Source: Stictocephala bisonia
Taxonomy: Eukaryota > Arthropoda > Insecta > Hemiptera > Membracidae
Assembly: GCA_035578905.1 (NCBI GenBank)
Contig: JAQJVL010000155.1
Coordinates: 62,001 to 126,000 of the forward strand
Reading direction: 5' to 3'
Length of the DNA stretch: 64,000 nucleotides
The notes beneath the pieces were generated by a model, which was not told the origin of the DNA, made no database searches, and was given only the letters and a program-made list of their open reading frames with translations. The translations under genes were made by a program, and so were the position numbers. Shown here one piece after another: positions 2,738 through 51,110 of this stretch (the stretch's first letter is position 1; every line of letters begins with the position of its first letter).

Positions 2738-3689
2738 GTAAAGGTAGCTGAAAATTATTCAATTATAACTGAGAATTTTAAAATTTCACAATACTAATTT
2801 TTGGTTTTTTTTCATTCCTGTCTAATTGATTAGAATAAACTCAATTATATTTCCTATTAAAATGATTAAGACACTTTGGGGTTTTTCCTTTCATTACATA
2901 CAACATACTTATTCATTAATCGTTACGTTCCGTATTTTACTTTGTAAAACATCAAATTAAATATCACTTAATTTAAAGGTGCTTTCTTTAATTACAGTAA
3001 CTCAGTTTTTACATTACTTTAAATTGGTTCTAACATATTACCTTACACATTAACAATAATAAATACGGTTCTTTGGCAATCGCACGAGCTAAATCAAAGG
3101 CGACCCGTGTTTTGGCCAAACAAACGTTTGAACATGTGCAAAATACATTTATCAAAAGGTGCGTTACTCTACAATTACAACAGCGTTAAAACAGAAACAT
3201 AAACTTATACACAACATATGTTGGGGATTGATTCAGAAAACTTAAGTACGTAAATTGATATTTTCATAAATACTACGATAAAAATTATCATATGATTTTT
3301 TTTAATCTGTACAACAAATTCTCTCCTTTATTCCATACATCACATTGCAATAGCCACTTTTATTTGTATGTAGCTTCTTACAGCCAATCATTTACCTCTT
3401 AAAGCCAATTACCAAGTACACGCTAATGAGTTATTCCTTCCCTCATAGCTCGTTTCATAGTGTTATTAGATGGCTTCCAACTATACCTCAATAAACAAGA
3501 TGAGTCATATTTCACAGAAGTAGGCTCGTGAGAAACCTTTGTTCATCAGAGCAAACATCATAAGGGAATTACTAATTTCTGAACAATGATATGCAGTACT
3601 TAAAATCCATGAGCTTACGTACTAAAGTTCTACAATTAATTAATAATTAAATAGGGCCTATATACTATGGATAACTAGCCATTTGGTGT
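2738..3689. other. AT-rich DNA without recognisable genes
   Basis: AT-rich sequence containing only the short dispersed repeat at 3,065-3,150. No coding signal, SINE or satellite was recognised in the remainder. Confidence 0.55.
3065..3150 (+). repeat. Dispersed 85-bp repeat, copy 1 of 2
   Basis: Matches 17,458-17,543 in the same orientation: CGGTTCTTTGGCA, then AGCTAA, GCGACCC, TGTTTTG, AAACGT, TGAACRTGTGC and AATRCAT, with scattered substitutions. GC-richer than its surroundings. Class unknown; the short length and lack of a visible tail leave it unassigned. Confidence 0.75.
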
Positions 3690-7801: not shown

Positions 7802-9755
7802 ATACTTTTTTAGAAACTTGGACCAGTCAGTAAATGATACTCGACTTTTAAGTTTATATGTATATTTATGAAGCTATTTAATGTCTCTGATTTATTATTT
7901 CCATTTGTGATTAAACTATTAAGTGAAATCAGTAAGAAAACCAACTTAAATTTACATAATTAGATTAGCAAAAATGATAGCTTGCAGATGAACAAGTTTC
8001 CTTAATAGATGGTTGAATAATATTATAAGACAAGTTTTTTATAGCTCGTGTTCCCTACAATTTTTCACCATTAAATTGCTCCGGAAACTACTAACCTAAC
8101 ACTTTTAGTTAGATGGGGTAACTTCCTCTGTGACGATAACGTATCATACATCCATCAACATTAGTAGCAAATGAGTCTAAATAAGTGCAAGTACATATTT
8201 CCGTTTAGTTTTCTCATAATCAGTAGAAATTACAGAATCGTAAATAGTGACACAGGGCTCAGCATATAAGATGACTGGTTTTACGGATATATCACCCTCC
8301 TAACGAACAACTATATCATTACATCATAAACATCCAAAAATTAGGTCCAAATATTTAAAAATGTTTAGTAAATTTTTAGAATATTTCTATGTTCTATGTT
8401 ATTCGAAATGTTTTAATAAGCATAGTGATTGGGTAAAACTGTCACATTTCTGAAACCTGTCATAACGGCTGAAAATATTGAAATATATTTCTTATAACAG
8501 GTTTTACTACTATGTAGTTTATTTCTGACGCAATCATAAACAAGGATTCAAATATCATTGAATTGTCAGTTTTTTTCATTTTCAAACTATTTTCAAACAT
8601 TAACGTATTTCGTGAAATTAGTTAATATAGGAATATATTTTACTGTTATCAAAATAATTAATGTTGTGCCTCTTTAATGTTTTTCTAATATACAAATGGT
8701 TATAATTTCGTGTTACAAATTAATAAAAATATGTGACGGATGAAATCGGAAGATAAGAAGATAAAAATATCAATATAGTTAATATATTAAATGTAGCAGA
8801 AAGTCTAGTGGAGTCACGATGAAAATATGTTGTATGTTGTGTGGGTGAGGGCACTTGAGCGTCACAGAAATGTTCAAGAGAAAGGTAAGTTTCCACCTAG
8901 CTCCATCTCGAAGGTCCACTCAGCTATGAAATAATGTTTGTATGTTTCGTTCGGTTACAATTTTGTGTTGGAGGTCTGGAACAAACAAAATATTACAGTT
9001 GTGTTTCAATACTTTATGTTATTTTAGCTTTATTACAATCACAATTAAAACTATTGATAATTATTGATATTAAAACAATTGATATTAAATCTATAATCAC
9101 ATATAAAAATGTATTAATCACATAAGTATAAAGTTATTGTTTTTGCCGCATTAATTAATTGTGTTGCCTATTTTTCATAAAAAAACATTCAATCTTATAA
9201 AAACTATTCATTTTAATAAACAAGTTAAAATATAACATTGTTTCATGTCATCTTTATAGTATAACAGTAATTTATATTTGTATTCTCAATAAAAACGTTT
9301 TACACGCATAAAACCATTTACTATAAAAGAAACAAACTGAAAAAGTAATGTACTGTGTTTGCTGAAGACACGCGCCTGTGCTCCTATCTAAAAATGAGTA
9401 GTTTTCAATAGGTGCTCGGACGACTATTTTGCGTGCTATTAGCTCAGATTTTATAAAAACTTCTAGTCACTTGAGCATTTGCTGGAGAAGAGAGAGAGAG
9501 ACAAAGAGAGGAAGACCGCAGGCGCACACTGGAAGAGATAACAATAACTAATTTCATAGGACAGGAAAGTTGGCTTCATGTGACCCATATGAGTGGAACA
9601 GTTTTCATGTTTCTATGGTCAATGCTACAAGTAATATAATGTAGTTTACGATTCTATTACTTCCCTAATAAAAATAAGTTCATAATTTCTATCAACAGCT
9701 AGCTTTACACTTCTGGTGAACCCATTCAAACTGACTTTTCGGTTGTGAAAATTTG
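7802..9755. other. AT-rich DNA without recognisable genes
   Basis: About 1.95 kb of AT-rich sequence. A short purine-rich (GA) tract lies at 9,490-9,512. The 63-codon frame at 8,934-9,125 has no recognisable domain. Nothing supports a gene, RNA or mobile element here. Confidence 0.55.
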
Positions 9756-9885: not shown

Positions 9886-10606
9886 ATAATTAATCAGCAG
9901 GGATCCTACTCAATAATTTGGGGTTGGAATAGATCAACTATTAGTAGGTTAACAGTCGTAGTGGAGGGACATGAAGGGTTGTCTGGCATGTCGTGTTTAA
10001 ACTCCGGTTTGAATTCTAATCGACCTACCGTTTTCCCTTCTGTGTATTGACTATACTACTTTTTTAATTGTTTAAAAAAAATCTTATGTATTAGCATAGA
10101 CAAATCAGTCTTTCCATTCGTTAGTTTACTTTTTTTTAAGTTTTCCTGAATATTTTATTGATGTGTATAGTATTGTTATTACTAATATAACATACCAACC
10201 TTATTAATAAAATTACTTCATCTATGCTAATATCTTTGAAGCACTATACAAAAGAGGCTGCGTGCTTTATGGTACTTCCAAGCCAACAGATAACCTGAGA
10301 GGGACATCTTGTAGTGGACGAACTTAAACTAGTGTGTGAGGCTTCTGTTGCATATCTTAAAGTTCTAAATATTTATTACACGTTAAAATAATTTTAAAAT
10401 ATCTTTAAAAATATATTAACAGCTAGAGAGAAGAATACAAATGAGTTTAGTCTAGCAAAGACGTATGTACTATTAGGTAAATTTACTATACAGCACTGTA
10501 GTGTCCCACTAACACAAATTTATAGTTAATAAATCACATAATTACATTTCGATAGAAAAACAATAGACATGAACATCACATAAAACAAATAAATCGATTA
10601 AAATTT
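9886..10606. other. AT-rich DNA without recognisable genes
   Basis: No coding, RNA or repeat signal recognised apart from short homopolymer runs. Confidence 0.5.
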
Positions 10607-10711
10607 CAGTACAAAATGTGCAAATATCAGTACAATATGTGCAAATATCAGTACGAAATGAGCAAATATCAGTACAAAATGTGCAAATATCAGTACAAAA
10701 TGCGCAAATAA
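10607..10711. repeat. 21-bp tandem repeat, five copies
   Basis: Five near-identical 21-bp units of the form CAGTACAAAATGTGCAAATAT. A single unit of the same sequence (AGTAAAAAATGCACAAATAT) lies at the matching place in the Penelope-like terminal repeat at 19,601-19,620. The array directly abuts the terminal-repeat segment at 10,712, so it looks like a local expansion of that element's end. Confidence 0.88.
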
Positions 10712-10790
10712 CATGGTAATTTTCGAAAACCACGTTTACCGTCCTCAGATTAAATGGATTCACAAGAGAATTTAAAGGACGAAAATCACA
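10712..10790 (-). mobile_element. Penelope-like terminal repeat fragment, decayed hammerhead
   Basis: Same family as 19,571-19,709. On the minus strand: the core CTGAGGA (10,748-10,742), one extra base, stem GGTAAAC, loop GTG, then GTTTTC and GAAA (10,724-10,721). One position of stem II is mismatched, and the bases that would form stem III and the cleavage site are changed (ATT where the best copy has TCGATC). I expect no self-cleavage activity from this copy. Confidence 0.7.
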
Positions 10791-11792: not shown

Positions 11793-12095
11793 CGCAACGC
11801 AATGAATATCAATGGGCCGATAACGCTACCTTGCGTCGCGCCGCACATGTCTGCATCACATATTCAAGGGCACCACGCCACACCGCTGCCAAACCGTAAC
11901 CACGAGAATGAATCACAAGTAGAATCTACCCGTTGGGGTCATCTCGTGGATTTAGATGGAACTCAGCAGGAAATGACTCAGGGGCATAATGACATAGCCG
12001 TAGCTGAAATAATTGCAGGTCCAACAATCAGTATTTGGTAGGCGGTACATCCTGTGAAATTTCTGCCGAGTCGGAAAGACCATTAGTAAACAAGG
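11793..12095 (-). pseudogene. Possible reverse-transcriptase scrap
   Basis: GC-richer patch. On the minus strand near 11,850-11,803 one frame reads CGATQGSVIGPLIFIA, very close to the (G)xPQGSxLGPLLF block shared by non-LTR reverse transcriptases. The sequence upstream on that strand contains stops and no clear RT motif, and no aspartate box was found downstream. A 79-codon frame on the plus strand (11,802-12,041) overlaps it and is probably its antisense shadow. Kept at low confidence because only one motif supports it. Confidence 0.4.
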
Positions 12096-12149
12096 TGTGG
12101 ATGTGTGAAACATTTTTAATGTTTTATGTTTCTAACTTACCAGATTTTT

Positions 12150-12722
12150 GAAATCTATCCTGGGTCTACTGTCTGAAATCTACTGAAATCTATCCTGGGT
12201 CTACTGTCTGAAATCTACTGAAATCTATCCTGGGTCTACTGTCTGAAATCTACTGAAATCTATCCTGGGTCTACTGTCTGAAATCTACTGAAATCTATCC
12301 TGGGTCTACTGTCTGAAATCTACTGAAATCTATCCTGGGTCTACTGTCTGAAATCTACTGAAATCTATCCTGGGTCTACTGTCTGAAATCTACTGAAATC
12401 TATCCTGGGTCTACTGTCTGAAATCTACTGAAATCTATCCTGGGTCTACTGTCTGAAATCTACTGAAATCTATCCTGGGTCTACTGTCTGAAATCTACTG
12501 AAATCTATCCTGGGTCTACTGTCTGAAATCTACTGAAATCTATCCTGGGTCTACTGTCTGAAATCTACTGAAATCTATCCTGGGTCTACTGTCTGAAATC
12601 TACTGAAATCTATCCTGGGTCTCCTGTCTGAAATCTATCCTGGGTCTACTGTCTGAAATCTATTGAAATCTATCCTGGGTCAACTGTCTGAAATCTACTG
12701 AAATCTATCCTGGGTTTTTGAA
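12150..12722 (+). repeat. 35-bp satellite, about 16 copies
   Basis: Highly homogeneous 35-bp unit made of TGAAATCTAC, TGAAATCTAT, CCTGGGTCTA and CTGTC. The first two decamers are themselves a near-duplication. The last three units are diverged (one lacks a decamer, and substitutions occur at 12,620-12,720), marking the array edge. No coding frame is maintained. Confidence 0.97.
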
Positions 12723-12904
12723 ATCTATACATCTTGGGTCCCTACTTATTTTGCAAATGTGTTGAATCATTACTTTTCTCATTTCGCTATAATGGTTGCT
12801 ACGTACATTGCTCTTAAATTTCAAATTTAGTTAGAGTACAAACATTCAAAAGTGGAAATACTAAGTTATAGAAATGTATAAATAAAACACACACACATTA
12901 ATGA

Positions 12905-13015
12905 ATCTCTCTTGTCTGAGGAACGTAAACGCGGTTTACCGAAAGCGATCACCATAATATGTAAACAGTTCGTAATTTTAATGTAATACATTTGTGACGT
13001 TCACTTGTAATGTAA
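12905..13015 (+). mobile_element. Penelope-like terminal repeat with hammerhead-like core
   Basis: Same family as 19,571-19,709 but inverted relative to it. From 12,916: CTGAGGA, bases AC, stem GTAAAC, loop GCG, stem GTTTAC, a C, then GAAA (12,941-12,944), GCGATC and ACCA. Stem II (6 bp) is perfect and its sequence differs from the 19.6-kb copy on both arms, so pairing is kept while bases change. The stem I strand TTGT pairs only partly with ACCA, and stem III has a G where the best copy has T. Downstream GTGACGTTCACTTGTA also matches the 19.58-kb copy, confirming the family. Flanking body of the element is absent. Confidence 0.75.
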
Positions 13016-15869
13016 CAATATAACGTTTTCTACATATTTTACAAACTCGTTAGACTATGATTAGAAATGGGTATATTAATATGCATAATATTATCTACGT
13101 GTTAAAGTCACATACAACTGTATTAAATTTACAAAAGCGTCTTCATAAATGTTTCATTCAACCTAAAACGTTACATTCCCATAATTCTCTGCATTAATTT
13201 TATTTGTGATTTGTAGAAAAATCTATATTATAACAATAGTCTTTCCCTTAAGGTTGCAGAAGAAATAAAATGTGAAATTATTACACAGTTAGTTTGAAAT
13301 ATATTTAATTAGAACCCATTAAGCCACACTGTTAATTTTTTTTTAATGTATACATAAAGTTTAATATATATATATATATATTCTTTATTTATTTTTAAAG
13401 GTTTGTTTGTTGTTGAAACATTATAAATATTAATTACTAAACATTATAATGATTATAAATAAATAATGCTTTCAACCCCTTGGAATTTATATTCTTGAAT
13501 TGTCGTTGCAAGCTGCCATTTAGCAATAATTACTCTTAACACTCATTACTAATACAACTTTAGGTTGTTACAACTTGCGAGAGTTATTACTTACCATTCC
13601 ATTTTTATATAGTTAAATAAGAATGAGGATTTGATCATCGATCTGAGCTTAAAAAATATCAATTTTTAAATTTCATCTACCATAATAGAAAAACTACAAG
13701 AATCCCTGAGTGAATCAGTTAACTTTCGTGGTGTGAACATACCGTAGTATATTCCATAATGCAATACATATGGATGGAGTTTTACAACTTCACCAAACCG
13801 TATATCTTCCATTTTATGGACTCGACCATTATTTATGTTTAATTAACTGAATATTTACTTAGCAGCTAAACAAACTAAGTGCAGCTTTTAACATTCGTAA
13901 TAAAATGTAATCAGCACCTATATAACGTGGTCTTTTACATATATTAAGTAAATCTAATTAAATAAGCAATAAAATTCAATCAGGATAAGATGCAATTAGA
14001 ATAACATTACTGGAAAATGTCCTTCGATTATAATAATTAAACTTCGTATGAAGAAATCACTTCATAATTCCGACTTTATTATTGTTAAGAAAGATTCTCT
14101 AATGATATCAGACATTTTAGATTTAGCTGGTTTAATGGACCAAACTTAAATAGGCAATTAGGGAGAGGTATAGAAAGTTGTATATAAAATACGTCCCTTC
14201 TGACGTGAAGACACTTTTGCAACATTAAAGTTCAAAGTTCAAACGTCGATGACGATAAAAACTGGAACCTATTTACCTTCAATACCTTCAAAAAAAGGTT
14301 ACAACAATTAAAAATAAGAATTAGTACTTAGATACCAAGATTCACTCAGTTGAATTTTGCAAACTGAAGAGGTAGCATCCATATCTCCCAGAGAATCCTT
14401 AGGATCGTTTGTTGTTGTTCTACCTTGTAGGTTACATTTTGTTCCGGAGGTCTTCCGCGTTTACTTTTAGACCCTATGTGGAACTCAGCCGGCGGCCTCA
14501 CCAAGGCACTCTGATACAGTCCCATTTTTGGATCTCGGCATATCTCACCTCGTGAGGAAGATCGGTCTTCGGCCTCGCCAGGATTCTTAAGCAGTATGAC
14601 AATGAATTATGGTAAACATAGTCTTTTCTAAACGATGAATGTATATTAGCAACTAAGAGACGAATGCCTTTAATTTGATAACCCACTTGGGTGTATTAGT
14701 TTAACATTACCTATTTTTGGGTTTTTGAGCATATATTTTATTTCGGGGGGGGGGGCGGAGCTCTTAAGTGTTGTCTCTTCTAAAATGTAATGGTATAATG
14801 TCATTTGGGAGATAAATACCTATAGTTCGACACCCCACTTTCTGCTAGAAGTCGACAATACATACGTAGGAGCCTCTGGGGCAGAAATCAGACTTTTCCC
14901 AGGATTGAGACTGGTGCCAATCGATTTCTCGTGGTCGGAAACCCCCCAAAAAATTAAAAATCCTCGGAGCAAAAACATTTCATCAAGACGTGGCTTCTTT
15001 TATATAATTATTTTTTATAGAAAATTTTCTATAAAAGTTATGAGTAAAAACATTTTTGTTTCAGCCATACCTAATATTTTCGTAATACTTAAATATATAT
15101 ATATATATATACTTTGTCTCTCCCATTTTATTACAAAGCTAAGAATAAACGTTAATGCTCTCTTATATACTGCGGGTCAGTGGTCACATGCACACGGAAA
15201 AGTTCAATTGAAAAACAAGACATTTATATATGATTTACGATAGACACTTAATTTACTATGAAAACTGTACTCACAATTTATTAAAATTTGCTGTCGATAA
15301 ACAATCAGTATGTTCAAAACTCCATCAAAAGCAGTATAATCTGCTCTAAAATAAATGTATTTTGCTTTTAAAAAATCATCTCTGTATAGCTATTTACTAC
15401 TCTCTAACTATTTTTCGACTACTTATATAGCCAGCAAAACACCAGCATTTTGAATTATTCCTTTCTAGTACAATAAGAAAAAAATGCTTTTTTTACTTTA
15501 TAATTGGACGAAAATAGTCATTTTCAATGGGAAAAATTGTATTACCCTGGCTGGTAATAAATATTATTAATAGATACAAAACAAAAGCATAGTGTTATTT
15601 TTGTTTCCCAAATTTTTTCTTTCTTTAAATTTTTGTGTAATAGAGCTACAAGTACTATTATAAATATTATTATTTGGCGCTTGCTAACTAAGCCAGCCAG
15701 TAGGGCTTGTAAGGCACAGCCTGACTCCGGCCACTCTTTAATATCGTGCATTAATTATAAGAGTAGCTTAATCGACAGATCTAGTAAACAGCACATATTC
15801 CTGTAAAGGAGGAATATAATTTAGTTTGTTTTATTGTAAACAGCACCACTTGTTGGCGGCCTTCCAATA
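13016..15869. other. AT-rich DNA without recognisable genes
   Basis: Mostly AT-rich. Minor items: (TA)n at 13,366-13,381 and 15,095-15,110; a G10 run at 14,746-14,755; a GC-richer patch at 14,440-14,580 (GGCGGCCTCACCAAGGCACT and CTCACCTCGTGAGGAAGATC) that has no clear reading frame and that I could not assign. The 112-codon frame at 14,905-15,243 and the 69-codon frame at 15,542-15,751 show no domain. Confidence 0.45.
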
Positions 15870-19135: not shown

Positions 19136-19570
19136 AGGATACTCGGTTCTCTCCCCTATGCAACATCCGAACACTGACTAGCACCCCATGTGGACACTAT
19201 AAGTTTCTCTATTAATGTCTACACCGATAGCAACCATTAAGCGTACGGCATGTTGGTAGTCATAGGACTGAGCATAGAACCTATCGAATTAAAAAAAGGT
19301 TCATTTTGATAAATCATTTGTTATTTATTTTATTTTTTTTTTTTTTTTCATAAGAATCCATTTCTTTATCCAAAATAGTTAACCAGGCTTTATGTTATCT
19401 TTCTTGGTAACTCAATAAAGAAGAAAGATCACTTGATAAACTCAATATTGTGACATTACGTAACTAATTAACATAGTTAAGACTGTAATATCAATCTGTA
19501 ATGATATAATAAAATATAGTTTTTTTAATTAGCATAATACGTGTTGGTACAAATACAGTACAAGTGAACG

Positions 19571-19709
19571 TCACACAGCAAAAATATATTATAATACAAG
19601 TAAAAAATGCACAAATATTATGGTGATCGATTTCGGTGAACCACGCTCACCTTCCTCAGACCAGAGGGATTCACATAAGAACGGACAATGATGTTCAACA
19701 ACTCAATTA
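19571..19709 (-). mobile_element. Penelope-like left terminal repeat
   Basis: Forms an inverted pair with 20,710-20,835: TGTTCAACAACTCAATT here against AATTGAGTTGTTGAACA there, plus GAGGGATTCACA/TGTGAATCCCTC and GGTGATCGATTT/AAATCGATCACC. Penelope-like elements are known to carry long-terminal-repeat-like ends that can be direct or inverted. This copy retains the full hammerhead-like segment; the right-hand copy has lost about 14 bp of it. Further decayed members lie at 10,712, 12,905 and 21,090. Confidence 0.85.
19621..19663 (-). ncRNA. Hammerhead-ribozyme-like motif (type I layout)
   Basis: Read on the minus strand from 19,663: stem I strand UGGU; catalytic core CUGAGGA, fitting CUGANGA; one unpaired A; stem II GGUGA, loop GCGUGGU, UCACC (5 bp, perfect); core GAAA; then UCGAUC, in which A-U and U-A pairs close a two-base CG loop as a minimal stem III and UC fits the required UH cleavage site; then ACCA, which pairs with UGGU to close stem I. 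Predicted scission is between 19,625 and 19,624. The very short stem III is a known feature of hammerheads in Penelope-like elements. The single extra base between the core and stem II departs from the textbook fold, and the same extra base occurs in the other two copies. Activity is inferred, not shown. Confidence 0.7.
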
Positions 19710-19734
19710 ATTGTCACCCCTTAATTGTCACCAG

Positions 19735-20583
19735 CAGAAGCTTACATTTACCAATGAACTTGAATCTATGAATTAAATCTACTTTTTGAATCTAAAAATA
19801 ATTCGTCATCGTAACAAACTTTCCATAAAGAATTTTCAGAAAACCTACTCAAACCAATTGTACAATAAATAACAGTTCTATCCATCCCCCGTCTCACAAA
19901 ACAGCTAGCTTCAGAAGTATGTTATATAGGGCGTATTCAATACCATTAAATGTTGCAGATAGAAAACAGGACATAAATGTAATAAAATCAATAGTTATTG
20001 CAAATGGATACAAAGCATCAATCATTGATGAAAATGGAAGTAGAATAGAAAAGAAAATAGAAAATAAAGTTCGAGATGATAAATGAACAACACTTAAAAA
20101 GAATAATATGATAAAGAACGAAATAAGTATGAATCCCTCCACTACAATGGACCGTTTACACAAAGAGTTGGTAATAGATTTAAGAAATTCGATTTATCAA
20201 TAGCTTTTAAGACTTTTAATACTATGTCCAATATTTTACATCCGAATATTGAAAGTGAAGATAAATTCAATAATTTGGAAATATTTAAGATTAACAGTAA
20301 TGGTTATAATATCTTTGACATAGGTCAGACTGTACATTTTAACAAAATATATAAAAAAAAACTATGTCTCTGCTTTTAAAAATAAGAAACCTGAAAGATC
20401 TAATGTAGCAAAACATCTTCTGAGCTGTACCCTCAGTTTTAATAAAATAGACGAAAATGTAGATATGCTAAAAAATTGTAATTAGGGTAGGATTATGAAT
20501 GCATGGAAAGAGTTATTTATTTTTAAAGAAAAATATAAGGATCGAGATAAATTAATTAATGAACAGGTTAATTTTGATTCCTA
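19735..20583 (+). pseudogene. Penelope-like element ORF remnant: RT C-terminus plus GIY-YIG
   Basis: Plus-strand frames, broken by stops and small shifts, encode the C-terminal part of a Penelope-like protein. In order: FLNLKI near 19,785, then a Y/F-R-K-P-T block near 19,840, HP..HK.ASFRSMLYRAYSIPLN near 19,880-19,950, an NGYKASIIDENG block near 20,010, then a GIY-YIG-type endonuclease remnant with YNIFDIGQT at 20,305-20,331, SNVAKHLL at 20,399-20,422 and GRIMNAWKELFIFKEKY near 20,485-20,535, ending at a TAA at 20,581. In this family the RT copies the element and GIY-YIG cuts the target. The catalytic RT palm is absent, so the copy is 5'-truncated. The inverted terminal repeats on both sides support the assignment. 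Confidence 0.82.
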
Positions 20584-20709
20584 AATAGTTGTTAATAACG
20601 TATTTTCAGTGATTAAAAGAACAGAAGTAACAGCCAATAGAAATTAGCTAATCACAGCAGCCGTTTTTTTGACATTTCAAGCCAATAGTGTCACGTGGTT
20701 GTAGGCCTA

Positions 20710-20835
20710 TAAATTGAGTTGTTGAACACTATTTTCATTCTTTTGTGAATCCCTCTGGTCTGGTTCACCTAAATCGATCACCATATTTGTACTTGTATTT
20801 TAATATATTTGTGCTTTTCGTGCTTATATTGTAAT
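20710..20835 (+). mobile_element. Penelope-like right terminal repeat, ribozyme core deleted
   Basis: Reverse complement of 19,571-19,709. The stretch that should read CTGAGGAAGGTGAGCGTGG before TTCACC is shortened to CTGG, removing most of the core and one arm of stem II, and GAAA is changed to TAAA. This copy cannot form the fold. Confidence 0.85.
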
Positions 20836-21089
20836 AAAAAATATAATGTTTGGCTTTAATGGCATGCCAACATAAAGTTGATTAACCAGGAAAAATTTAA
20901 CTATTTAATGTTGATCACAAATATCTAATTTTAGTGCAATTGAAGAATGAAAATTGAAGCTAGTTGATATTTGGTCCGTTTTGTGTAAGTCAGCACTTTC
21001 CTTAGTGGCCGTAAGTTTTCGTTAAATAAGTTTGGTTAAGTTCCCCTTTTTGTTACAAATATTCTTTAGCGTATTATGTGGGTATAAAA

Positions 21090-27113: not shown

Positions 27114-27689
27114 CTAACCCTACGAATACTAATCCAGACATTTTAAAGTGGAAATACCAATTTCTACAAAAATATTTTTTTGTATAATTTTTACTCCAAA
27201 AACTATGTATATGACATTAATATTCGTAATATTCCCTCCTAAAGACGAACATGATATCCATTTATGTCTTTTATAAATAAAAATTTAAATACTTAACAAA
27301 ACTGTTTAGGTTAGATTATATTTGTTTGTAAGGTTAGGTTAGGTTAAGTTAGGTTATGTTATGTTAAGTTAGGTTATGTTATGTTAGGTTAGGTCAGGTT
27401 AGGTTAGGTTAGGTTTGGTTAGGTTAGGTTAGGTTAGCGATTTGTAATCATAGTCAACAAACCTAACCTAACTAACTTAACCTAACCTACATGTTGTGCT
27501 GAATGTTTCAGTTACTATTCGTAGTATGAATGTTTCTATTTCATTTTCGTGTTCAGAAAAAAAACTGCATAAAATTAATTTAATTTACAAAGATGTTTAG
27601 TAAAAATGTGTGTGTTTTATTTTTTCCCATTTTTGGTTATAAATCTGTATTTCCACCAAACAATATATGGATTCATTATCGTGGGGTTA
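27114..27689. mobile_element. Inverted-repeat element with TTAGG core, copy A
   Basis: The left end (CTAACCCTACGAATACTAAT..., with GTGGAAATACC further in) and the reverse complement of the right end (TTAACCCCACGATAATGAAT..., with GTGGAAATACAG) match over roughly 45 bp, giving a MITE-like frame. Inside are degenerate TTAGG repeats on the plus strand at about 27,303-27,437, followed by their reverse complement (AACCTAACC) at 27,460-27,492. No protein. Its sequence also aligns with the element at 60,240-61,829 (TTTTACTCCAAAAA and the TATTCGT...CTAAA block are shared). Target-site duplication not determined. Confidence 0.75.
27303..27492. repeat. Interstitial telomere-like (TTAGG)n tract
   Basis: Contains runs such as GGTTAGGTTAGGTTAGG mixed with TTAAG and TTATG variants, then the complementary AACCTAACCTAAC after about 20 bp. 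TTAGG is the ancestral insect telomere repeat. The tract is internal, short, degenerate and of both orientations, so it is not a chromosome end. Confidence 0.9.
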
Positions 27690-30811: not shown

Positions 30812-30967
30812 TAAGTTTTAATACAATCATACAGAAAAATTCTTTACAATATCGGAATGTGTTTCAGTTACATCCATAAAATTATGTTAAATTATGATGA
30901 GGTTACATTATTAGTAGTTATCAAAGAAAAACAGTTACTTTTGTCTTATTTTAAATATTCCATTGGC

Positions 30968-31110
30968 TTTGAGTTAGCTGAAAATCAGACCAAATAAATA
31001 AGTGGTTCGGATTCCACGTAACGCTGTAGGTTCCTTAGTTGCCCTGGCTATTGGGCTTCTAGTAAATAGCTCTTTCTGAGGAACAGTTGAACTTAGCTAG
31101 TGACAATGAC
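30968..31110 (+). repeat. Dispersed repeat, partner of 19 kb
   Basis: Matches the reverse complement of 19,035-19,135. Includes GTGGTTCGGATTCCACGTAA, CGCTGTAGG, CCTTAGTTGCCCTGGC and TATTGGGCTTCT, with weaker similarity continuing to about 31,110. Confidence 0.8.
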
Positions 31111-33240: not shown

Positions 33241-34449
33241 ACGTGATCAATCTCCATTTATACTTTCAGTGTCCGTTCCCTACGAGGGAGGTTCGCGTCC
33301 TCAGTAACTTTAAAGCTGTACATACACCCTGGGTAGTTGTAAATGAGCTACAAATCTGTTAGTTGGTCTGTCAAGATTTTCCGATCTTCTAGCTATGGCA
33401 GCTACCACACAAAATAAATAAGACTAATGAAAATTTTATAGAAATTGAAAAAAGTCACTACGGTTCATAAATTACAATTTAGTATCATCAGTAAAAATGT
33501 TCACAACGGCATCACTGCATTTAATAAAAATATGTCTAACCCATATCAGCTTTGACTTCCAATTTCTTTGTAAATACCTAATAAGTATACAAATAAAATA
33601 TTTATACATAAAAAATCTATTTAACTAATGGCATGCAAATGCCATAAATCATATAAGTTGCTGCAAACGTGAGCACAGTTCCACTTCTTTACTTGGGCGT
33701 GAAGAAAACATTATAAATGTTTCATGCCGAGTCGATATCCGGAGATGTGTAGCCGGAATAAACATGACAAAACAAGGGAATGACTCTCCATACAACTTGT
33801 TTACCTCCAGCTTCACAAGCCGTTTCTACGAGGCTATTTTCATAACATTTCCGTTTCCTAAAGTTGTTTTCTTTCAATGACCCGGCCATTGTGAAATAAT
33901 CCTCATAAAATTATCATATTTGATCGTTTTAAGTTTGGTTGGCTATGTATATAATTTCCCATCCCTTTTGTAATTTAATATCATATTTCAACATATTAAT
34001 TTAAAGACTTCCCTTGGCCAAAAAGGTTTAATACATTCCACTGATATACGCAAGCGTCTACTACTGTTTTAACAATTGTTACAGATTGTTGGATTTTTCA
34101 CAAAAATGTTCTTCGTGTTGGCATAAATCCCAAGAAGTTTCATCCCTGACTTATATGCAAGATTATTCCCTCCTCACGAGATTGGGATGTAAGATGTCAC
34201 TTGGAAAAGTCTTGCTGATAGTCATATCTTCAAACAAGGAATAATTCGTCAGCATTATATCCTGACATCAATAATCTGGAGGTGAGGAAATTTCACTTCC
34301 GGAAAACATGATCTAGATTGATTTGAAGATAAGACAAATTGGAACCTAGGAACCAAATCTGAAAAGGTCAGATTGATATTGATTATTCACACTGTTATTA
34401 AAAAAATTTGTTAGTAAAAATTTTTCTCTCAAATTCACATGGGCCTGAA
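33241..34449. other. AT-rich DNA without recognisable genes
   Basis: The first part may include more decayed LINE sequence upstream of the tail, but no motif was recognised. The rest holds nothing that I can support. Confidence 0.45.
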
Positions 34450-34871: not shown

Positions 34872-36633
34872 CAGTTTTCCTTCTGCACCTCAAGCCTATG
34901 GAGTTTTTCAGGGTGTTAGCTCCTCTTTGTTTCTGTCACCAACGTCCAATAATGAAGTTTTAGAAGTTATTAAGTCTCTTAAACCTGGCAACTCGGCTGG
35001 AGCTGACGGAATCTCATCCAACACTTTAAAATCATGAGCTGACCTCCTCGTTCACCCTCTCACCCACTTGGTAAATGCCTCCTTTGAACATTGTGTTTTC
35101 GCTCAACGGCTTAAAAAAGCAACTGTCAGGCCTCTGCTAAAAAAAGGTTCTCCTCAAGATCCCGAAAATTATAGACCTATAGCAATACTTTCTACCTTCT
35201 CTAAAGTCTTAGAGAAGCTATTTCTCTTGCGCTTGGAATCATTTTTAAAATCTAACAATGTAATCTACCCGCAGCAGTTTGGCTTTAAAAAGAATGTTTC
35301 AACATCGGACGCAATATTTAATTTTATTTCCAATATCACATTTTCACTCGACAATCATGAGCACACATGTGCCTTGTTCTTAGATCAAAGCAAGGTTTTT
35401 GATGTTGTTCCTCACAACCTCCTTATTGAGAAACTCCGGAATCTCGGATTAAGGGGGAAGGCTAGTGATTGGATTTCATCTTTCTTACTTGACCGTAAAC
35501 AAACGGTTCCCTATATTGACGACTCAGGCTGTTTCTCAAGGATGTGTTCTAATGAACAAACAACCATGACGGGAGTACCACAAGGTTCCGTTCTTGGGCC
35601 GGTACTCTTCATCCTTTTCATTAATGACATATCATCTTGCATAACCGGTGGAAATTTATGTCTATTCACAGATGATACTTCGTTTAGCGTTTCTAATGTG
35701 GACCAGTATAAACTGGAGGTAGAATTATTTCTACAAGGAAGCTCAATATTGCAATGGCTGAGTGAAAACAAGTTATTTGCAAATCCTGGTAAAACACAAC
35801 TTATTGAGTTCTACCTTAGGTCGTCTAAGAATTCTGACTTTGACTGTTTTGATATCTTCCTCGGCGAATCAGTTCTGAGCCCGAGTTATAGCACCAATTT
35901 TATAGGTATTCAAATAGATGCAAATTTAAATTTTCACCTTCATATCGAAAAAGTTACCAAAAAATTAAGCAGCAGCATTTTCTTACTTCGTAGGCTAGCC
36001 ACTTTTACAGATATGAATTCCTTGCTTTTAGCATATTATGGTTGCTTCTATCCGTTCATGACGTATGCCATTATTATCTGGGGCCACGAGACCACAAGAA
36101 CTGGTTCTGTATTCAAACTACAGAAAAAGGCTATTAGAATCATACTTGGCCTTTCAAAATCTCAGTCATGTGTTGGTAGTTTTAAACAACACAACATATT
36201 ATAACATTCACTAGCTTATATATTCTAGAATGTGCTGCTTTTGTTTATAAAAACAGACACATTTTTCCGGTCCATAACTCCATTTATAAACTCCGTCATC
36301 CTGATATTATCCCCATTCCTAAACATAGAACTACCTTTTTTGAAAAACAAGCATTCTTTTCTTGTATAAAAATATACAATAAACTTCCACAAATATATAA
36401 AGTTTCTAAAGACCTAGTGTCATTTAGGTGAAATATGAAAGAGTTTTTGTTGAGGAGAGAGTGTGGATGATTATTTTTATGATGAGACATGATTTTATTT
36501 ATCTATGTTCTCTTTTGTATCATTGTACTCTATATTGTATTACCCTATAGTTTTTACACTTAGTTTTTAAGGAATTAACCTTTGTTAATGCAATTGAGTT
36601 TGTCAACAGGAATAAAATATTTTGACTTTGACT
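34872..36633 (+). mobile_element. 5'-truncated LINE inserted into a 45-bp satellite
   Basis: A 1.76-kb block interrupts the 45-bp array. It contains the RT ORF (below), a short 3' UTR and an end in tandem TTTGACT units, a 3' end style shared by several LINE clades. No endonuclease or ORF1 part is present, so the copy is 5'-truncated, as happens when target-primed reverse transcription stops early. The array stops after ...CACTCATC and resumes at TTAACCACC, so only about two bases (GG) are missing and no target-site duplication is visible. Motifs are jockey-superfamily-like, but the clade cannot be fixed by eye. Confidence 0.9.
34890..36431 (+). pseudogene. LINE reverse transcriptase, one stop and one frameshift
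   Basis: Copies element RNA into DNA at the nicked target. The frame opens in the interrupted satellite; the first LINE-type block is LKPGNSAGADGIS (about 34,979-35,017). An in-frame TGA at 35,035-35,037 follows, then 378 open codons from 35,068. Counting from there: NYRPI at 34-38; catalytic-block aspartate D106 in FLDQSK (usually LDLSKAFD); PQGS at 171-174; FTDD with D202 and D203 (usually YADD/FADD); thumb block IWGHE near 331. The frame is lost near 36,190-36,204, and another frame continues with SLYILECAAFVYKN and KQAFFSCIKIYNKLP to a TGA at 36,429. All catalytic aspartates survive, so decay is recent, but the copy is dead. Confidence 0.92.
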
Positions 36634-43739: not shown

Positions 43740-44400
43740 ATAGTCTAAAAAAAATGTTAGTGCAGAGTAGCCTATACTGAGACATGGATATTTTTAGTCT
43801 GAAAGACCGTCACTGCAGGATATACTTAGACGTGGATATTAACAGTCTAAAAGACCCGTTAGTACAGTTTATACTGACATGTAGATAGTACAGTCAACCG
43901 TGCGTGTATTCTTAAACATAGTTGAATTTAATTTTGTAATAACGTTATATTCAATTTGAATAAATGATTTTTTATTTGGTTTGATTTAATATTGTCTAAA
44001 ATACCCGTTAGGTCACAGTATACTGAGACGTGCGTATTACAGTATAAAAAGCCCGTTAGTGCAGGGTATACTGAGACGTGTGTATTACAGTCTAAAAGTC
44101 CCGTTAGTGTAGGATATACTGAGACGTGTGTATTACAGTATAATAGACCGGTTAGTGCAGGATATACTGAGACGTGTGTATTGCTGTATAAAAAGCCCGT
44201 TAGTGCAGGGTATACTGAGACGTGTGTATTACAGTCTAAAAGACCGGTTAGTGCAGGATATACTGAGACGTGTGTATTACAGTATAAAAAGCCCGTTAGT
44301 GCAGGGTATACTGAGACGTGTGTATTACAGTCTAAAAGACCGGTTAGTGCAGGATATACTGAGACGTGTGTATTGCTGTTTAAAATAAGCCGTTAGTAGG
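43740..44400 (+). repeat. 48-bp satellite, block 1
   Basis: Unit CGTTAGTGCAGGGTATACTG, AGACGTGTGTATTACAGTCT, AAAAGACC. Diverged copies at 43,740-43,885, a 100-bp spacer, then about 8-9 regular copies from 43,994. As 48 is a multiple of 3, long frames with a repeated 16-residue period appear (for example SAGYTETCVLQ); I treat these as array artefacts, not a protein, because they carry no upstream gene structure and alternative frames are equally open. Confidence 0.95.
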
Positions 44401-44879
44401 CAGGGTAATACCTGAGACGGTTAGCTTGTATTGTACAGATAGATTAAAACCCCGTAATGCGAGTGTTACACTGAGAACGATGATATATTAATCCAATGCG
44501 GACCATAGTTCGTTCAAAATTACTAAATAAACTAACGTAATGAAAAAAAAGTATCTGTTAGTGGGCTGTAAAACAAAATTGTAAAATATTACAGTCTAAA
44601 AGAAGTTTAAGTTGCATTGTAATAAGCTGAACTTGTTGTAGATTGTATATATAAAAAAGCACCGTTAGTGAGGTAATATTGAGTATTGGTAATTATAGGT
44701 TAAAAGAACATTTCAGTCATATCACTGTAAAACATTGTATGAGCTGATTATAAAATCCCTTATAAAGTATTATGATACTTTATTTATTATTCTAAAATGA
44801 CATCTAGTGCAGGATAGTATGTAAACATGTTGGTATTGACATAATAAAAAACAAAACGTTACGCAGGTTACTGATGTGT
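44401..44879. repeat. Scrambled gap in the 48-bp array, possible consensus error
   Basis: The first 90 bp follow the 48-bp unit but with many single-base insertions (GTTAGTAGGCAGGGTAATAC, CTGAGACGGTTAGCTTGTAT). The rest blends 48-bp words (ACAGTCTAAAAGA, GTTAGTG) with words from 43.2-43.7 kb. Such a mixture is not typical of either mutation or gene conversion and is more like a poorly corrected long-read consensus. Confidence 0.6.
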
Positions 44880-46485
44880 AGATGTGTGTATTACAGTATA
44901 GAATGCCCGATAGTGCAGGGTATACTGAGACGTGTGTATTACAGTCTAAAAGACCGGTTAGTGCAGGGTATACTGAGACGTGTGTATTGCTGCATAAAAA
45001 ACCCGTTAGTGCAGGGTATACTGAGACGTGTGTATTACAGTATAAAAAGCCCGTTAGTGCAGGGTATACTGAGACGTGTGTATTACAGTATAAAAGACAC
45101 GTTAGTGCAGGGTGTACTGAGACGTGTGTATTACAGTATAAAAAGCCCGTTAGTGCAGGGTATACTGAGACGTGTGTATTACAGTCTAAAAGACCTTTAG
45201 TGCAGGGTATACTGAGACGTGTGTATTACAGTCTAAAAGACCTTTAGTGCAGGATATACTGAGACATGTGTATAACAGTATAAAAAGCCCGTTAGTGCAG
45301 GGTATACTGAGACGTGTGTATTACAGTATAAAAGACACGTTAGTGCAGGGTGTACTGAGACATGTGTATTACAGTATAAAAGACACGTTAGTGAGGGTGT
45401 ACTGAGACGTGTGTATTACAGTATAAAAAGCCCGTTAGTGCAGGGTATACTGAGACGTGTGTATTACAGTCTAAAAGACCTTTAGTGCAGGATATACTGA
45501 GACAGGTGTATAACAGTATAAAAAGCCCGTTAGTGCAGGGTATACTGAGACGTGTGTATTACAGTATAAAAAGCCCGTTAGTGCAGGGTATACTGAGACG
45601 TGTGTATTACAGTCTAAAAGACACGTTAGAGCAGGGTGTACTGAGACGTGTTTATTACAGTCTAAAAGACACGTTAGTGCAGGGTTTACTGAGACTTGTG
45701 TATTACAGTCTAAAAGACACGTTAGTGCAGGCTGTACTGAGACGTGTGTATTACAGTCTAAAAGACACGTTAGTGCAGGATATACTGAGACGTGTGTATT
45801 ACAGTATAAAAAACCCGTTAGTGCAGGGTATACTAAGTCGTGTATATTACAGTCTAAAAGACCAGTTAGTTAATGTAGGGTATACTGAGACGTGTGTATT
45901 ACAGTCTAAAAGATACGTTAGTGCAGGATATATTGAGACGTGTGTATTGCAGTCTAAAAGACCTGTTAGTGCAGGGTATACTGAGACGTGTGTATTACAG
46001 TCTAAAAGACCCGTTAGTGTAGGATATACTGAGACGTGTGTATTACAGTCTAAAAGACAAGTTAGGGTAGGATATATTGAGACGTGTCTATTGCAGTCTA
46101 AAAGACCCGTTAGTGCATGGTATACTGAGACTTGTGTATTACAGTATAAAAACCTGTTAGTGCAGGGTATACTGAGAGGTGTGTATTACAGTCTAAAAGA
46201 CCTGTTAGTGCAGGGTATACTGAAACGTGTGTATTACAGTATAAAAAGCCCGTTAGTGCAGGATATACTGAGACGTGTGTATTACAGTCTAAAAGACCCG
46301 TTAGTGCATGGTATACTGAGACGTGTGTATTACAGTCTAAAAGACCTGTTAGTGCAGGGTATACTGACACGTGTGTATTGTAGTCTAAAAGACCCGTTAG
46401 TGCAAGGTATACTGAGACGTGTGTATTACAGTCTAAAAGACCCGTTAGTGCAAGGTATACTGAACCGTACAGCGTACACCTTTTA
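44880..46485 (+). repeat. 48-bp satellite, block 2, about 33 copies
   Basis: Same unit as block 1, with exact 48-bp spacing (for example CGTTAGT at 45,004 and 45,052). Single- and few-base indels in some copies shift frames. The longest frame, 335 codons at 45,485-46,492, crosses between two reading phases of the unit, which a selected protein would not do. Ends at GTATACTGAACCGTACAGCG. Confidence 0.96.
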
Positions 46486-47205
46486 TAAGTGAAATAAACA
46501 ATGAGGGTTCACATTTTAGGCTTACTGTTTATAAAACAAACTTTAATTACTTACAAATCCATAAATTTTGTTGATATAACAGTTTTGTTTTTATGGGTAT
46601 TTTATAAATATTTATTGATTATTGTTAGAAGAACTTTCCCAAAGTAATAGAAGAATGAAGAAACATCATAAATGTATCATCAATTACTTCCTTCAACATT
46701 TTGGTGAAAGAAGATAAAGTTACCAAACCAAGTAAACCTTTCACAATTACTGTCAATCGGTTGACAAGCCTGTAGGAGGCTGTAAGTGATCAGGTACAAG
46801 GACAGTGTTCGTCAGCGACTCCTTATGGCCCATTTGGCCGCGGGTCCATCATCATTACCGGGACCATTGGGCAGGCCTTCCGACTCCGCTGGGCTGGACA
46901 GTTCGCTTTTTCACCTCCTTCCACTCAACTAGCTCGGTCAGCATCTGTTTCGCCAAGATTGGTGACCTCTTTCCCTTCCCCCAACCCCTTTACTCCATCG
47001 ACATTTCTCTAGAAGTAAATTGAATTTACCACACTCAGTCTAGAGTTGATCATCGCCCTCTCTTTACTAGTAATGCAACAAACATTTTTCCTATTTCTTA
47101 ACACCCAAATGTAATTATTAAATAAATATACCAAAAAACTGCTACATGAAATGATTATTTATCGTCACATCCCGGTTGGCTCTTGACAACTGTCCTGTGT
47201 CTTTT
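46486..47205. other. Unassigned sequence
   Basis: AT-rich, then a GC-richer patch at 46,800-47,020 with a 72-codon plus-strand frame (46,805-47,023) lacking recognised motifs. No support for a gene. Confidence 0.4.
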
Positions 47206-47640: not shown

Positions 47641-48149
47641 ACTTGCAACTAAGTCGAAAAACACAATTTTTAAGCACAAAGAAATCGTCTAGTTTATCAA
47701 AATTGCATCAAATTATGCGTCTATTATGTTTGCGACCAGGTCTGGAAGTTTTCACCCACTTTAACTGTTCTGAATCCACCTCTTCTTGCCCATGAACGTC
47801 CCCTGACTCTGGAATCCGTGAAGGTCGACCGTTTCGTCAAGCCCGTTTGTGTGGTCTAGTAAACTGGCCTGGGAATGGTGTCCAACACTGCTTCTCTCAA
47901 CTTGTTACCACTTTTTTCTTACCTTCTTAAAAGCCAATGCTACTCGTGTAAAAAAGGTCCCAACCCACAACCTTGCCTATTCACATGATATTAAAGTTGG
48001 GTTACAGTGCAATGAGTCGGTTCTGTTTTGTAACTGATTAATGTGAAATTGCTAATTTCATTTCTGGTATAAACTATACTTTATTTGACTTTTAAAGATT
48101 TTTTAGCTTTAGAAGAGATTAAACCGTTAGCCTTTTATTGTTAAACCAT
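47641..48149. other. Unassigned sequence
   Basis: About 500 bp, moderate GC at 47,730-47,960; no motif recognised in the 62-codon frame at 47,849-48,037. Confidence 0.4.
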
Positions 48150-51110
48150 TAATCTTAATTGTACGTGTATGGGAGGATGGATCAATACCACCGTACGTGT
48201 AAGGGAGTGTGGGTGGGTCAATACGACCGTATACGTAAGTGAATGTGGGTAGGTCAATACCACCGTGCGTGTAGGGGAATGTGGTAGGCCAATACCACCG
48301 TGCGTGTAAGGTAATGTGGGGGTCAATACCACTGTACGTGTAAGGGAATGTGGTAGGCCAATACCACCGTGCGTGTAGGGGAATGTGGTAGGCCAATACC
48401 ACCGTGCGTGTAAGGTAATGTGGGGGTCAATACCACTGTACGTGTAAGGGAATGTGGGGGTCAATACCACCGTGCGTGTAGGGGAATGTGGTAGGCCAAT
48501 ACCACCGTGCGTGTAAGGTAATGTGGGGGTCAATACCACTGTACGTGTAAGGGAATGTGGTAGGCCAATACCACCGTGCGTGTAGGGGAATGTGGTAGGC
48601 CAATACCACCGTGCGTGTAAGGTAATGTGGGGGTCAATACCACTGTACGTGTAAGGGAATGTGGTAGGCCAATACCACCGTGCGTGTAGGGGAATGTGGT
48701 AGGCCAATACCACCGTGCGTGTAAGGTAATGTGGGGGTCAATACCACTGTACGTGTAAGGGAATGTGGTAGGCCAATACCACCGTGCGTGTAGGGGAATG
48801 TGGTAGGCCAATACCACTGTACGTGTAAGGGAATGTGGGGGTCAATACCACTGTACGTGTAAGGGAATGTGGTAGGCCAATACCACCGTGCGTGTAAGGT
48901 AATGTGGTAGGCCAATACCACTGTACGTGTAAGGGAATGTGGGGGTCAATACCACTGTACGTGTAAGGGAATGTGGTAGGCCAATACCACCGTGCGTGTA
49001 GGGGAATGTGGTAGGCCAATACCACCGTGCGTGTAAGGGAATGTGGTAGGCCAATACCACCGTGCGTGTAGGGGAATGTGGTAGGCCAATACCACCGTGC
49101 GTGTAAGGTAATGTGGGGGTCAATACCACTGTACGTGTAAGGGAATGTGGGGGTCAATACCACCGTGCGTGTAGGGGAATGTGGTAGGCCAATACCACCG
49201 TGCGTGTAGGGGAATGTGGTAGGCCAATACCACCGTGCGTGTAGGGGAATGTGGTAGGCCAATACCACCGTGCGTGTAAGGTAATGTGGGGGTCAATACC
49301 ACTGTACGTGTAAGGGAATGTGGGGGTCAATACCACTGTACGTGTAAGGGAATGTGGTAGGCCAATACCACCGTGCGTGTAGGGGAATGTGGTAGGCCAA
49401 TACCACCGTGCGTGTAAGGTAATGTGGGGGTCAATACCACTGTACGTGTAAGGGAATGTGGTAGGCCAATACCACCGTGCGTGTAGGGGAATGTGGTAGG
49501 CCAATACCACCGTGCGTGTAAGGTAATGTGGGGGTCAATACCACTGTACGTGTAAGGGAATGTGGGGGTCAATACCACTGTACGTGTAAGGGAATGTGGT
49601 AGGCCAATACCACCGTGCGTGTAGGGGAATGTGGTAGGCCAATACCACCGTGCGTGTAGGGGAATGTGGTAGGCCAATACCACCGTGCGTGTAAGGTAAT
49701 GTGGGGGTCAATACCACTGTACGTGTAAGGGAATGTGGTAGGCCAATACCACCGTGCGTGTAGGGGAATGTGGTAGGCCAATACCACTGTACGTGTAAGG
49801 GAATGTGGGGGTCAATACCACTGTACGTGTAAGGGAATGTGGTAGGCCAATACCACCGTGCGTGTAAGGTAATGTGGTAGGCCAATACCACTGTACGTGT
49901 AAGGGAATGTGGGGGTCAATACCACTGTACGTGTAAGGGAATGTGGTAGGCCAATACCACCGTGCGTGTAGGGGAATGTGGTAGGCCAATACCACCGTGC
50001 GTGTAAGGGAATGTGGTAGGCCAATACCACCGTGCGTGTAAGGGAATGTGGGGGTCAATACCACTGTACGTGTAAGGGAATGTGGTAGGCCAATACCACC
50101 GTGCGTGTAGGGGAATGTGGTAGGCCAATACCACCGAGCGTGTAAGGTAATGTGGGGGTCAATACCACTGTACGTGTAAGGGAATGTGGGTGGGTCAATA
50201 CCACCGTGCGTGTAAGGGAATGTGGGTGGGTCAATACCACCGTGCGTGTAAGGTAATGTGGGGGTCAATACCACTGTACGTGTAAGGGAATGTGGGTGGG
50301 TCAATACCACCGTGCGTGTAAGGGAATGTGGGGGTGTGGTTCAATACCACCGTGCGTGTAAGGGAATGTGGGGGTGTGGTTCAATACCACCGTACGTGTA
50401 AGGGAATGTGGGGGTCAATACCACTGTACGTGTAAGGGAATGTGGGTGGGTCAATACCACCGTGCGTGTAAGGGAATGTGGGTGGGTCAATACCACCGTA
50501 CGTGTAAGGGAATGTGGGGGTGTGGTTCAATACCACCGAGCGTGTAAGGTAATGTGGGGGTCAATACCACTGTACGTGTAAGGGAATGTGGGTGGGTCAA
50601 TACCACCGTGCGTGTAAGGGAATGTGGGGGTGTGGTTCAATACCACCGTGCGTGTAAGGGAATGTGGGGGTGTTGTTCAATACCACCGTACGTGTAAGGG
50701 AATGTGGGGGTGTGGTTCAATACCACCGTACGTGTAAGGAATGTGGGGGTGTGGTTCAATACCACCGTGCGTGTAAGGAAATGTGGGGGTGTGGTTCAAT
50801 ACCACCGTGCGTGTAAGGGAATGTGGGGGTGTGGTTCAATACCACCGTGTGTGTAAGGGAATGTGGGTGTGTGGTTCAATACCACCGTGCGTGTAAGGGA
50901 ATGTGGGGTGTGGTTCAATACCACCGTACGTTTAAGGGAATGTGGGGGTGTGGTTCAATACCACCGTGCGTGTAAGGAAATGTGGGGGTGTGGTTCAATA
51001 CCACCGTGCGTGTAAGGGAATGTGGGGGTGTGGTTCAATACCACCGTACGTTTAAGGAATTGTGGGTAGGTCAATACAACTGTGCGTGTATGGAAGTGTG
51101 GGTGGGTCAC
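48150..51110 (+). repeat. 34/35-bp minisatellite with 104-bp higher-order repeat
   Basis: Same core family as the 36-bp arrays: TACCACTGTACGTGTAAGGG and TACCACCGTGCGTGTAGGGG followed by AATGTGGTAGGCCAA or AATGTGGGGGTCAA. Monomers of 34 and 35 bp combine as 34+35+35 = 104 bp; the same positions recur at 48,530, 48,634, 48,738 and 48,842. From about 50,150 the unit changes to a ~40-bp variant with GGGGGTGTGGTTCAATACC and the higher order is lost. The edges at 48,150-48,280 and 51,040-51,110 are diverged. The minus strand has dozens of overlapping open frames, all products of the repeats. Confidence 0.96.

Follow-up and report, generated by a model that had tools for sequence, protein, structure and literature searches.

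Hammerhead ribozymes in Penelope-like elements are established knowledge, as the first-pass annotation of this locus had assumed, and PMC6155905, PMC7761336 and PMC11167929 already cover their minimal form, the tandem arrangement of units and insertion from uncut RNA. The first two papers characterise these hammerheads as minimal and mostly devoid of helix III, with a possible action as dimers; PMC6155905 also describes minimal Penelope forms without a tertiary contact between loop I and loop II, and PMC7761336 calls the role of hammerheads in Penelope-like elements still a mystery. Poseidon PAc of Anolis, as portrayed in PMC11167929, has a ribozyme at the boundary of pseudo-LTR and ORF and tandem units with reverse transcriptase and GIY-YIG domains, and its insertion uses uncut RNA with reverse transcription beginning inside the transposon RNA, features that the family described here appears to share. 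The PAc frame starts inside the ribozyme, whereas in the unit of the present family that we examined the first ATG follows the cut site by 120 nt and a TATA box precedes the ribozyme by 49 nt. The satellite and retrozyme hammerheads of newt and axolotl likewise have a helix III of one or two pairs; PMC7229834 mentions a palindromic tetraloop in one axolotl form, describes the amphibian forms as weak as monomer and efficient as dimer, and places them, unlike the motif studied here, in ~330-350-bp repeats described as non-autonomous.

The minimal Penelope-like hammerheads of Cervera and de la Pena (2014) and of Lunse, Weinberg and Breaker (2017) reportedly have the same type I order as our motif and a short or missing stem III, and they also share with it the pseudo-LTR location, the tandem arrangement of elements and a likely dimeric action. 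The present family may differ from these minimal hammerheads by one extra base between CUGANGA and stem II, which is found throughout. The motif occupies 43 bases of the window, by which we mean the whole 64,000-nt stretch of Stictocephala bisonia DNA analysed. Read on the minus strand from 19663 to 19621, it runs UGGU-CUGAGGA-A-GGUGAG-CGUGG-UUCACC-GAA-AUCGAU-C-ACCA, and contains all elements of a type I hammerhead in the right order: core, stems I-III, A15.1-U16.1 and C17. Both the CUGANGA core and GAAA are present, stem I comprises four pairs (UGGU/ACCA) and is open towards the flanks, A15.1-U16.1 and H17 precede stem I, and cleavage is predicted between 19625 and 19624. Stem II consists of five Watson-Crick pairs plus a closing G-U, with the 5-nt loop CGUGG, and stem III is formed by two pairs inside the palindrome AUCGAU, whose six bases make up stem III and its loop. 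Re-reading of the sequence bore out the coordinates, strand, order of parts and UGGU/ACCA stem I given by the first-pass annotation; its 5-bp stem II stood as well, refined by the closing G-U. Judged by these features, the 43-mer is an intact type I hammerhead of a Penelope-like element, a setting in which such motifs are already known.

The motif is embedded in a short, broken, head-to-head insertion spanning 19516-20838 (Table 1). Since its two arms match the family unit L028 in opposite orientation, the insertion is a short head-to-head copy, in which the right arm contains the end of the polymerase part, the linker, the endonuclease and the 3' pseudo-LTR, up to the leader of the next unit. 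Pfam searches with short pieces of the broken endonuclease region returned nothing relevant, and the link was made through P0001, an endonuclease relative that carries PF01541. The proposed location in a Penelope-like terminal repeat was confirmed by the adjacent endonuclease pseudogene and by tandem open-frame copies carrying the identical 43-mer, with the correction that the ribozyme sits on the arm that is inverted relative to the neighbouring endonuclease remnant. Both arms begin in the leader downstream of a ribozyme and continue across its cut site, which implies that their RNA templates were apparently uncut there and that cleavage would be neither complete nor required for insertion. 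In the genome, 5,748 places are continuous across the cut site in an exact match (GATC directly followed by ACCA). For the element, the window copy has probably lost any function.

Table 1. Coordinates of the predicted hammerhead, its parts, the surrounding insertion and further family ribozymes in the window.
Feature	Position	Strand	Evidence or remark
Predicted minimal type I hammerhead, 43 nt	19621..19663	-	Same sequence as in open-frame family members
Stem I, 5' side UGGU, pairing with ACCA at 19621-19624	19660..19663	-	93.8% of cells paired in 28 distinct copies
Catalytic core CUGAGGA (CUGANGA)	19653..19659	-	Motif reading
Extra A between core and stem II	19652..19652	-	Base kept in 27/28 distinct copies
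Stem II and loop CGUGG	19635..19651	-	G-C to A-U double change in divergent copies
GAA and stem III/loop III AUCGAU, palindrome	19626..19634	-	Two copies could pair in a 6-bp helix III
C17, nucleotide 5' of the predicted cleavage	19625..19625	-	Position in motif
Left arm, pseudo-LTR with ribozyme to just past the start codon	19516..19711	-	80% identity to L028 2098-2323
Right arm, 5'-truncated Penelope-like element	19720..20838	+	87% DNA identity to L028 1108-2255
Endonuclease pseudogene, frameshift 20355/20357 and internal stops	20125..20605	+	tblastn with P0001, 53-64% identity
Second ribozyme of the same insertion, most of core and stem II deleted	20756..20783	+	19.1 bits, E 0.0018
Divergent family ribozyme with GCGA as loop III and a single mismatch in each of stems I and II	12912..12954	+	60.5 bits
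Decayed family ribozyme, C as extra base, most of stem III lost	10714..10752	-	39.8 bits
Possible target-site duplication AAAATATA, 8 bp, AT-rich, weak	19511..19518 and 20838-20845	.	Sequence repeat

Four homologous ribozyme copies were identified in the window, at 19621-19663 (-), 12912-12954 (+), 10714-10752 (-) and, with a deletion, 20756-20783 (+). The copy at 12912 keeps the full core and five of six stem II pairs, one of them by a compensatory change from G-C to A-U. The sequences at 12912-12954 and 10714-10752 were part of the family model with which the window was searched, and the one at 20756-20783 was not. Weak matches to this model at 86-98, 14915-14971 (E 0.058), 30964-30992 and 33364-33407 were not taken as copies. 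Other repeats were noted in passing: a 21-bp unit is repeated about six times at 10580-10734, on the downstream side of the decayed ribozyme; 35-bp units, several of them identical, stand in tandem across 12044-12742, ending 170 nt before the ribozyme at 12912; and long, minisatellite-like repetitive stretches open in several frames cover 43928-46508 and 48141-50340. A short array of GGTTA/TTAGG-like repeats at 27317-27456 resembles arthropod telomere sequence and is the one hint bearing on the insect-like context that the first-pass annotation had read from the sequence. The window also holds, at 35038-36204 (+), an open stretch of 388 aa with an RVT_1 match (1.1e-32), for which tblastn shows no relation to the Penelope-like element.

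The source genome of the window (1.68 Gb) contains a large family of such copies. The core pattern CTGANGAN{12,20}GAAANCGATCACC matched at 3632 places on one strand and 3610 on the other, 7,242 altogether, and the reversed-pattern control matched at none on either. A search of the genome with P0001 gave 150 scored matches out of 13,345 candidates, many of them in frames above 850 aa that are arranged in head-to-tail arrays with a period of ~2.76 kb, and also in head-to-head pairs. Within eight array stretches searched with up to 10 mismatches allowed, 24 ribozymes were found, all identical to the window 43-mer and all on the strand of the neighbouring coding frame; such an identity of array copies could partly be an assembly effect. 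These ribozymes sit between coding frames, and in C8265 the stop-to-stop frame reaches into the ribozyme. When loci were selected by their endonuclease and the ribozyme was ignored, 29 of 30 carried the ribozyme or a close variant, many of them sharing arrays and hence not independent. At least two units with open endonuclease frames, in C8265 near 8002-8151 and in C9029 near 9233-9381, have no ribozyme at the expected place.

Unit L028 encodes RVT_1 (8e-12) and GIY-YIG (1.9e-05) in one unbroken stretch of 670 aa, and thus has a reverse transcriptase followed by GIY-YIG in a single frame, of which the window copy is a broken relative. Together with the head-to-tail arrays, whose tandem units give pseudo-LTRs, this domain order identifies the tandem family units as Penelope-like elements. 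Among 48 distinct family segments, the window copy differs from the majority at 8/98 flanking bases and at 0/43 motif bases, a comparison that does not amount to a test of selection because the window copy was picked as intact and the segments were found by similarity.

The first-pass annotation had reported that the extra base between core and stem II is common to three copies and had suggested a family trait rather than decay. The base is indeed present in the window copies at 12912-12954, 10714-10752 and 19621-19663, as A in two of them and as C in that at 10714-10752. The alignment model A3, built from nine copies, aligned 73 matches in 47 sequences, some overlapping the same place; the 43-mer was identical in 46 of these 73, and 28 copies were distinct. 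A base is kept at the extra position in 27 of the 28 distinct copies (26 A, 1 C), the exception being a copy without the core. Concordantly, 93 of the 100 genomic matches listed out of 7,242 have the standard length, and all 93 keep the base (A in 91, G in 1, T in 1); among the same 100, four are one base shorter and three one base longer, and 50 equal the 38-base core of the window copy. As the base is retained in 27/28 distinct copies and in 93/93 listed matches of standard length, it is a family trait and not decay. The hammerhead of Chrysanthemum chlorotic mottle viroid has an extra nucleotide in its core; it is likewise a natural example, but belongs to a plant viroid and not to a retroelement. 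Stem II of our motif does not directly adjoin A9, as one extra A intervenes throughout the family, and this does not exclude the motif from the class because, according to PMC10085705, known hammerhead alignments include members with one or two nucleotides inserted beside CUGAnGA. For the same reason the extra A beside stem II is probably tolerated.

Folding energies and covariation contribute little to the structural argument. In isolation the 43-mer has its energy minimum in another hairpin, in which core bases are paired, at -15.1 kcal/mol compared to -8.1 kcal/mol for the hammerhead, the latter scored without stem III and both ignoring the tertiary core of the hammerhead; the greater stability of this rival hairpin counts against easy folding as a monomer. 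With the same neglect of the tertiary core, a double hammerhead reached -19.7 and the best dimer fold -36.9. Folding energy was also discarded as support, with a z of -0.46 for 91 nt and of -2.56 for the 43-mer, but in the latter case for the other fold. Standard pairs fill 93.6% of the pair cells in the 28 distinct copies, compared with 93.3% in shuffles, of which 102 of 500 were as high, and one pair shows a double change from G-C to A-U, equalled in 177 of 500 shuffles, in an alignment that was itself fitted to the structure. The nine-copy alignment gave the same covariation outcome, and the same stem II pair is A-U in four distinct 38-mers among the matches listed. Covariation, which rests mainly on one young family and does not exceed shuffles, was too weak to serve as proof of the stems. 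The youth of the family limits what a comparison of copies can contribute on structure.

A chance resemblance within an AT-rich repeat has, in our judgement, a negligible probability. The motif is short, and bare core patterns do arise by chance: a looser core pattern gave eight matches in the window, three of them family copies, with a mean of 1.94 expected from shuffles, and many such patterns occur in viral and prokaryote collections. Those latter matches look like chance, with a stem II of at least three pairs possible in 11 of the 132 listed; relatives of the family endonuclease were found in neither collection. In contrast, the strict descriptor (CUGANGA, stem II of at least 4 pairs, GAA, A15.1-U16.1, H17, stem I of at least 3 pairs) matched once in the 64-kb window, whereas 300 dinucleotide shuffles together gave 4 matches (mean 0.013); the hammerhead-like motif announced by the first-pass annotation is real and correctly placed. 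Moreover, 7,242 genomic matches stand against 0 for the reversed pattern, and five 10-kb stretches at preset genome positions yielded no family-model match above 12.1 bits. The family evidence already refutes chance. The covariance-model search that had been proposed as a check went the other way and gave the result named in one half of the refutation proposed by the first-pass annotation: Rfam recognised no hammerhead in the window at gathering thresholds, none at E<=10 whether 6 kb or 171 bases around the motif were searched, and none in three other loci of the Penelope-like family. In the 171 bases the only match, rejected at 14.3 bits and E 3.2 with a cut-off of 39, was UPD-PKib, a plant-virus-type pseudoknot, over 19623-19651; mir-297 and similar relaxed-threshold matches in the 6 kb are AT repeats. 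We infer that this silence marks a limit of the Rfam models and not a refutation, likely because helix III is nearly missing and a base is inserted.

A non-autonomous retrozyme or satellite carrying a canonical type I hammerhead is a highly improbable alternative to a Penelope-like element. PMC7229834 does report type I hammerheads in the tandem repeats of animal retrozymes, but the unit here measures 2.76 kb with RVT_1 and GIY-YIG domains, not 150-450 bp, and the same insertion contains an endonuclease remnant; the coding units already disfavour this reading. Unlikely, yet deserving more weight, is descent from an active hammerhead that no longer cleaves in this family and is kept as part of a promoter or 5' leader, the loss being attributed to the extra A, the almost absent stem III and the stronger competing hairpin. 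The more stable competing fold of the 43-mer and the silence of the Rfam hammerhead models on the family are consistent with this, as are the two window arms and the 5,748 genomic places that run across the cut site and the two units without a ribozyme in C8265 and C9029. For a lizard relative, PMC11167929 reports that cleavage was unneeded for insertion in vitro and that no RNA ends lay at the cut site. An inert remnant is harder to reconcile with 43 bases unchanged across arrays and with the more diverged 12.9-kb copy, in which the full core and 5/6 stem II pairs persist, one of them compensatory; furthermore, relatives of similarly minimal layout are reported to cleave as dimers (Lunse 2017).

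We therefore regard it as very probable that the motif is the type I hammerhead of a young Penelope-like family, unchanged in a short dead insertion. In the family the ribozyme occurs about once per tandem unit of ~2.76 kb, on the coding strand and in the interval that separates one coding frame from the following one. The usual spacing from a TATA box places the transcript start about 20 nt before the ribozyme; transcripts are predicted to begin there, and read-through of an array would produce a transcript with about one ribozyme per unit. By analogy with the known class, the RNA would fold into the hammerhead and cleave after C17, most likely between 19625 and 19624, which would cut read-through transcripts into unit-length RNAs beginning ACCAUAAUAUU. 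Given a stem III of only two pairs and the self-complementarity of AUCGAU, a double hammerhead is possible, in which two ribozymes, on one array transcript or on two RNAs, would pair via a 6-bp helix III and swap stem I strands; this double hammerhead through AUCGAU is probably the likelier active form. Minimal Penelope hammerheads are reported to cleave as dimers (Lunse, Weinberg and Breaker 2017). PMC3088659, in connection with an Aedes hammerhead, points out palindromic sequences in stem III/loop III and describes weak stems III as common.

The least expected part of the results is the frequency of head-to-head pairs. Among 100 places listed of 7,242, all on contig C1, 21 neighbours lie less than 250 nt apart, 20 of them head-to-head, one direct and none tail-to-tail; beyond 250 nt, a tail-to-tail neighbour occurs at 666 nt among the matches listed. 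Seven head-to-head pairs were inspected (L003, L006, L007, L008, L050, L053, L066). In four of them at least one arm stops 11-19 nt short of the ribozyme, close to where the RNA 5' end is expected, and in the other three both arms are longer. In L008 the pair gives rise to a long hairpin, whose matches to miRNA-precursor models stay below cut-off; the mir-2513-like Rfam matches at this locus fall on that hairpin and were rejected. The inspected arm ends, few as these junctions are, fit two cDNAs joined at the 5' ends of two uncut RNAs. A mechanism that we put forward tentatively, and consider rather doubtful, is that both cut target strands prime cDNA on uncut RNAs, that the cDNAs are joined at the RNA 5' ends and that the palindromic stem III pairs the RNAs. 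The palindrome would lie within ~20 nt of the likely RNA 5' end and so may help joining. The start of both window arms inside the leader downstream of a ribozyme fits this mechanism, as does the report in PMC11167929 that a relative cuts and extends both target strands.

Copies in this genome number in the thousands, arrays are identical, and at thousands of places the sequence continues unbroken over the cut site. With such copy numbers, sequence alone can address the use of cut versus uncut RNA, the position of RNA 5' ends and the formation of inverted copies. An extra core base throughout a young family constitutes a ready natural test of the tolerance of the hammerhead core to lengthening. 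If the proposed origin of the head-to-head pairs were true, the hammerhead would act less as a cutter than as a site of RNA dimerisation.
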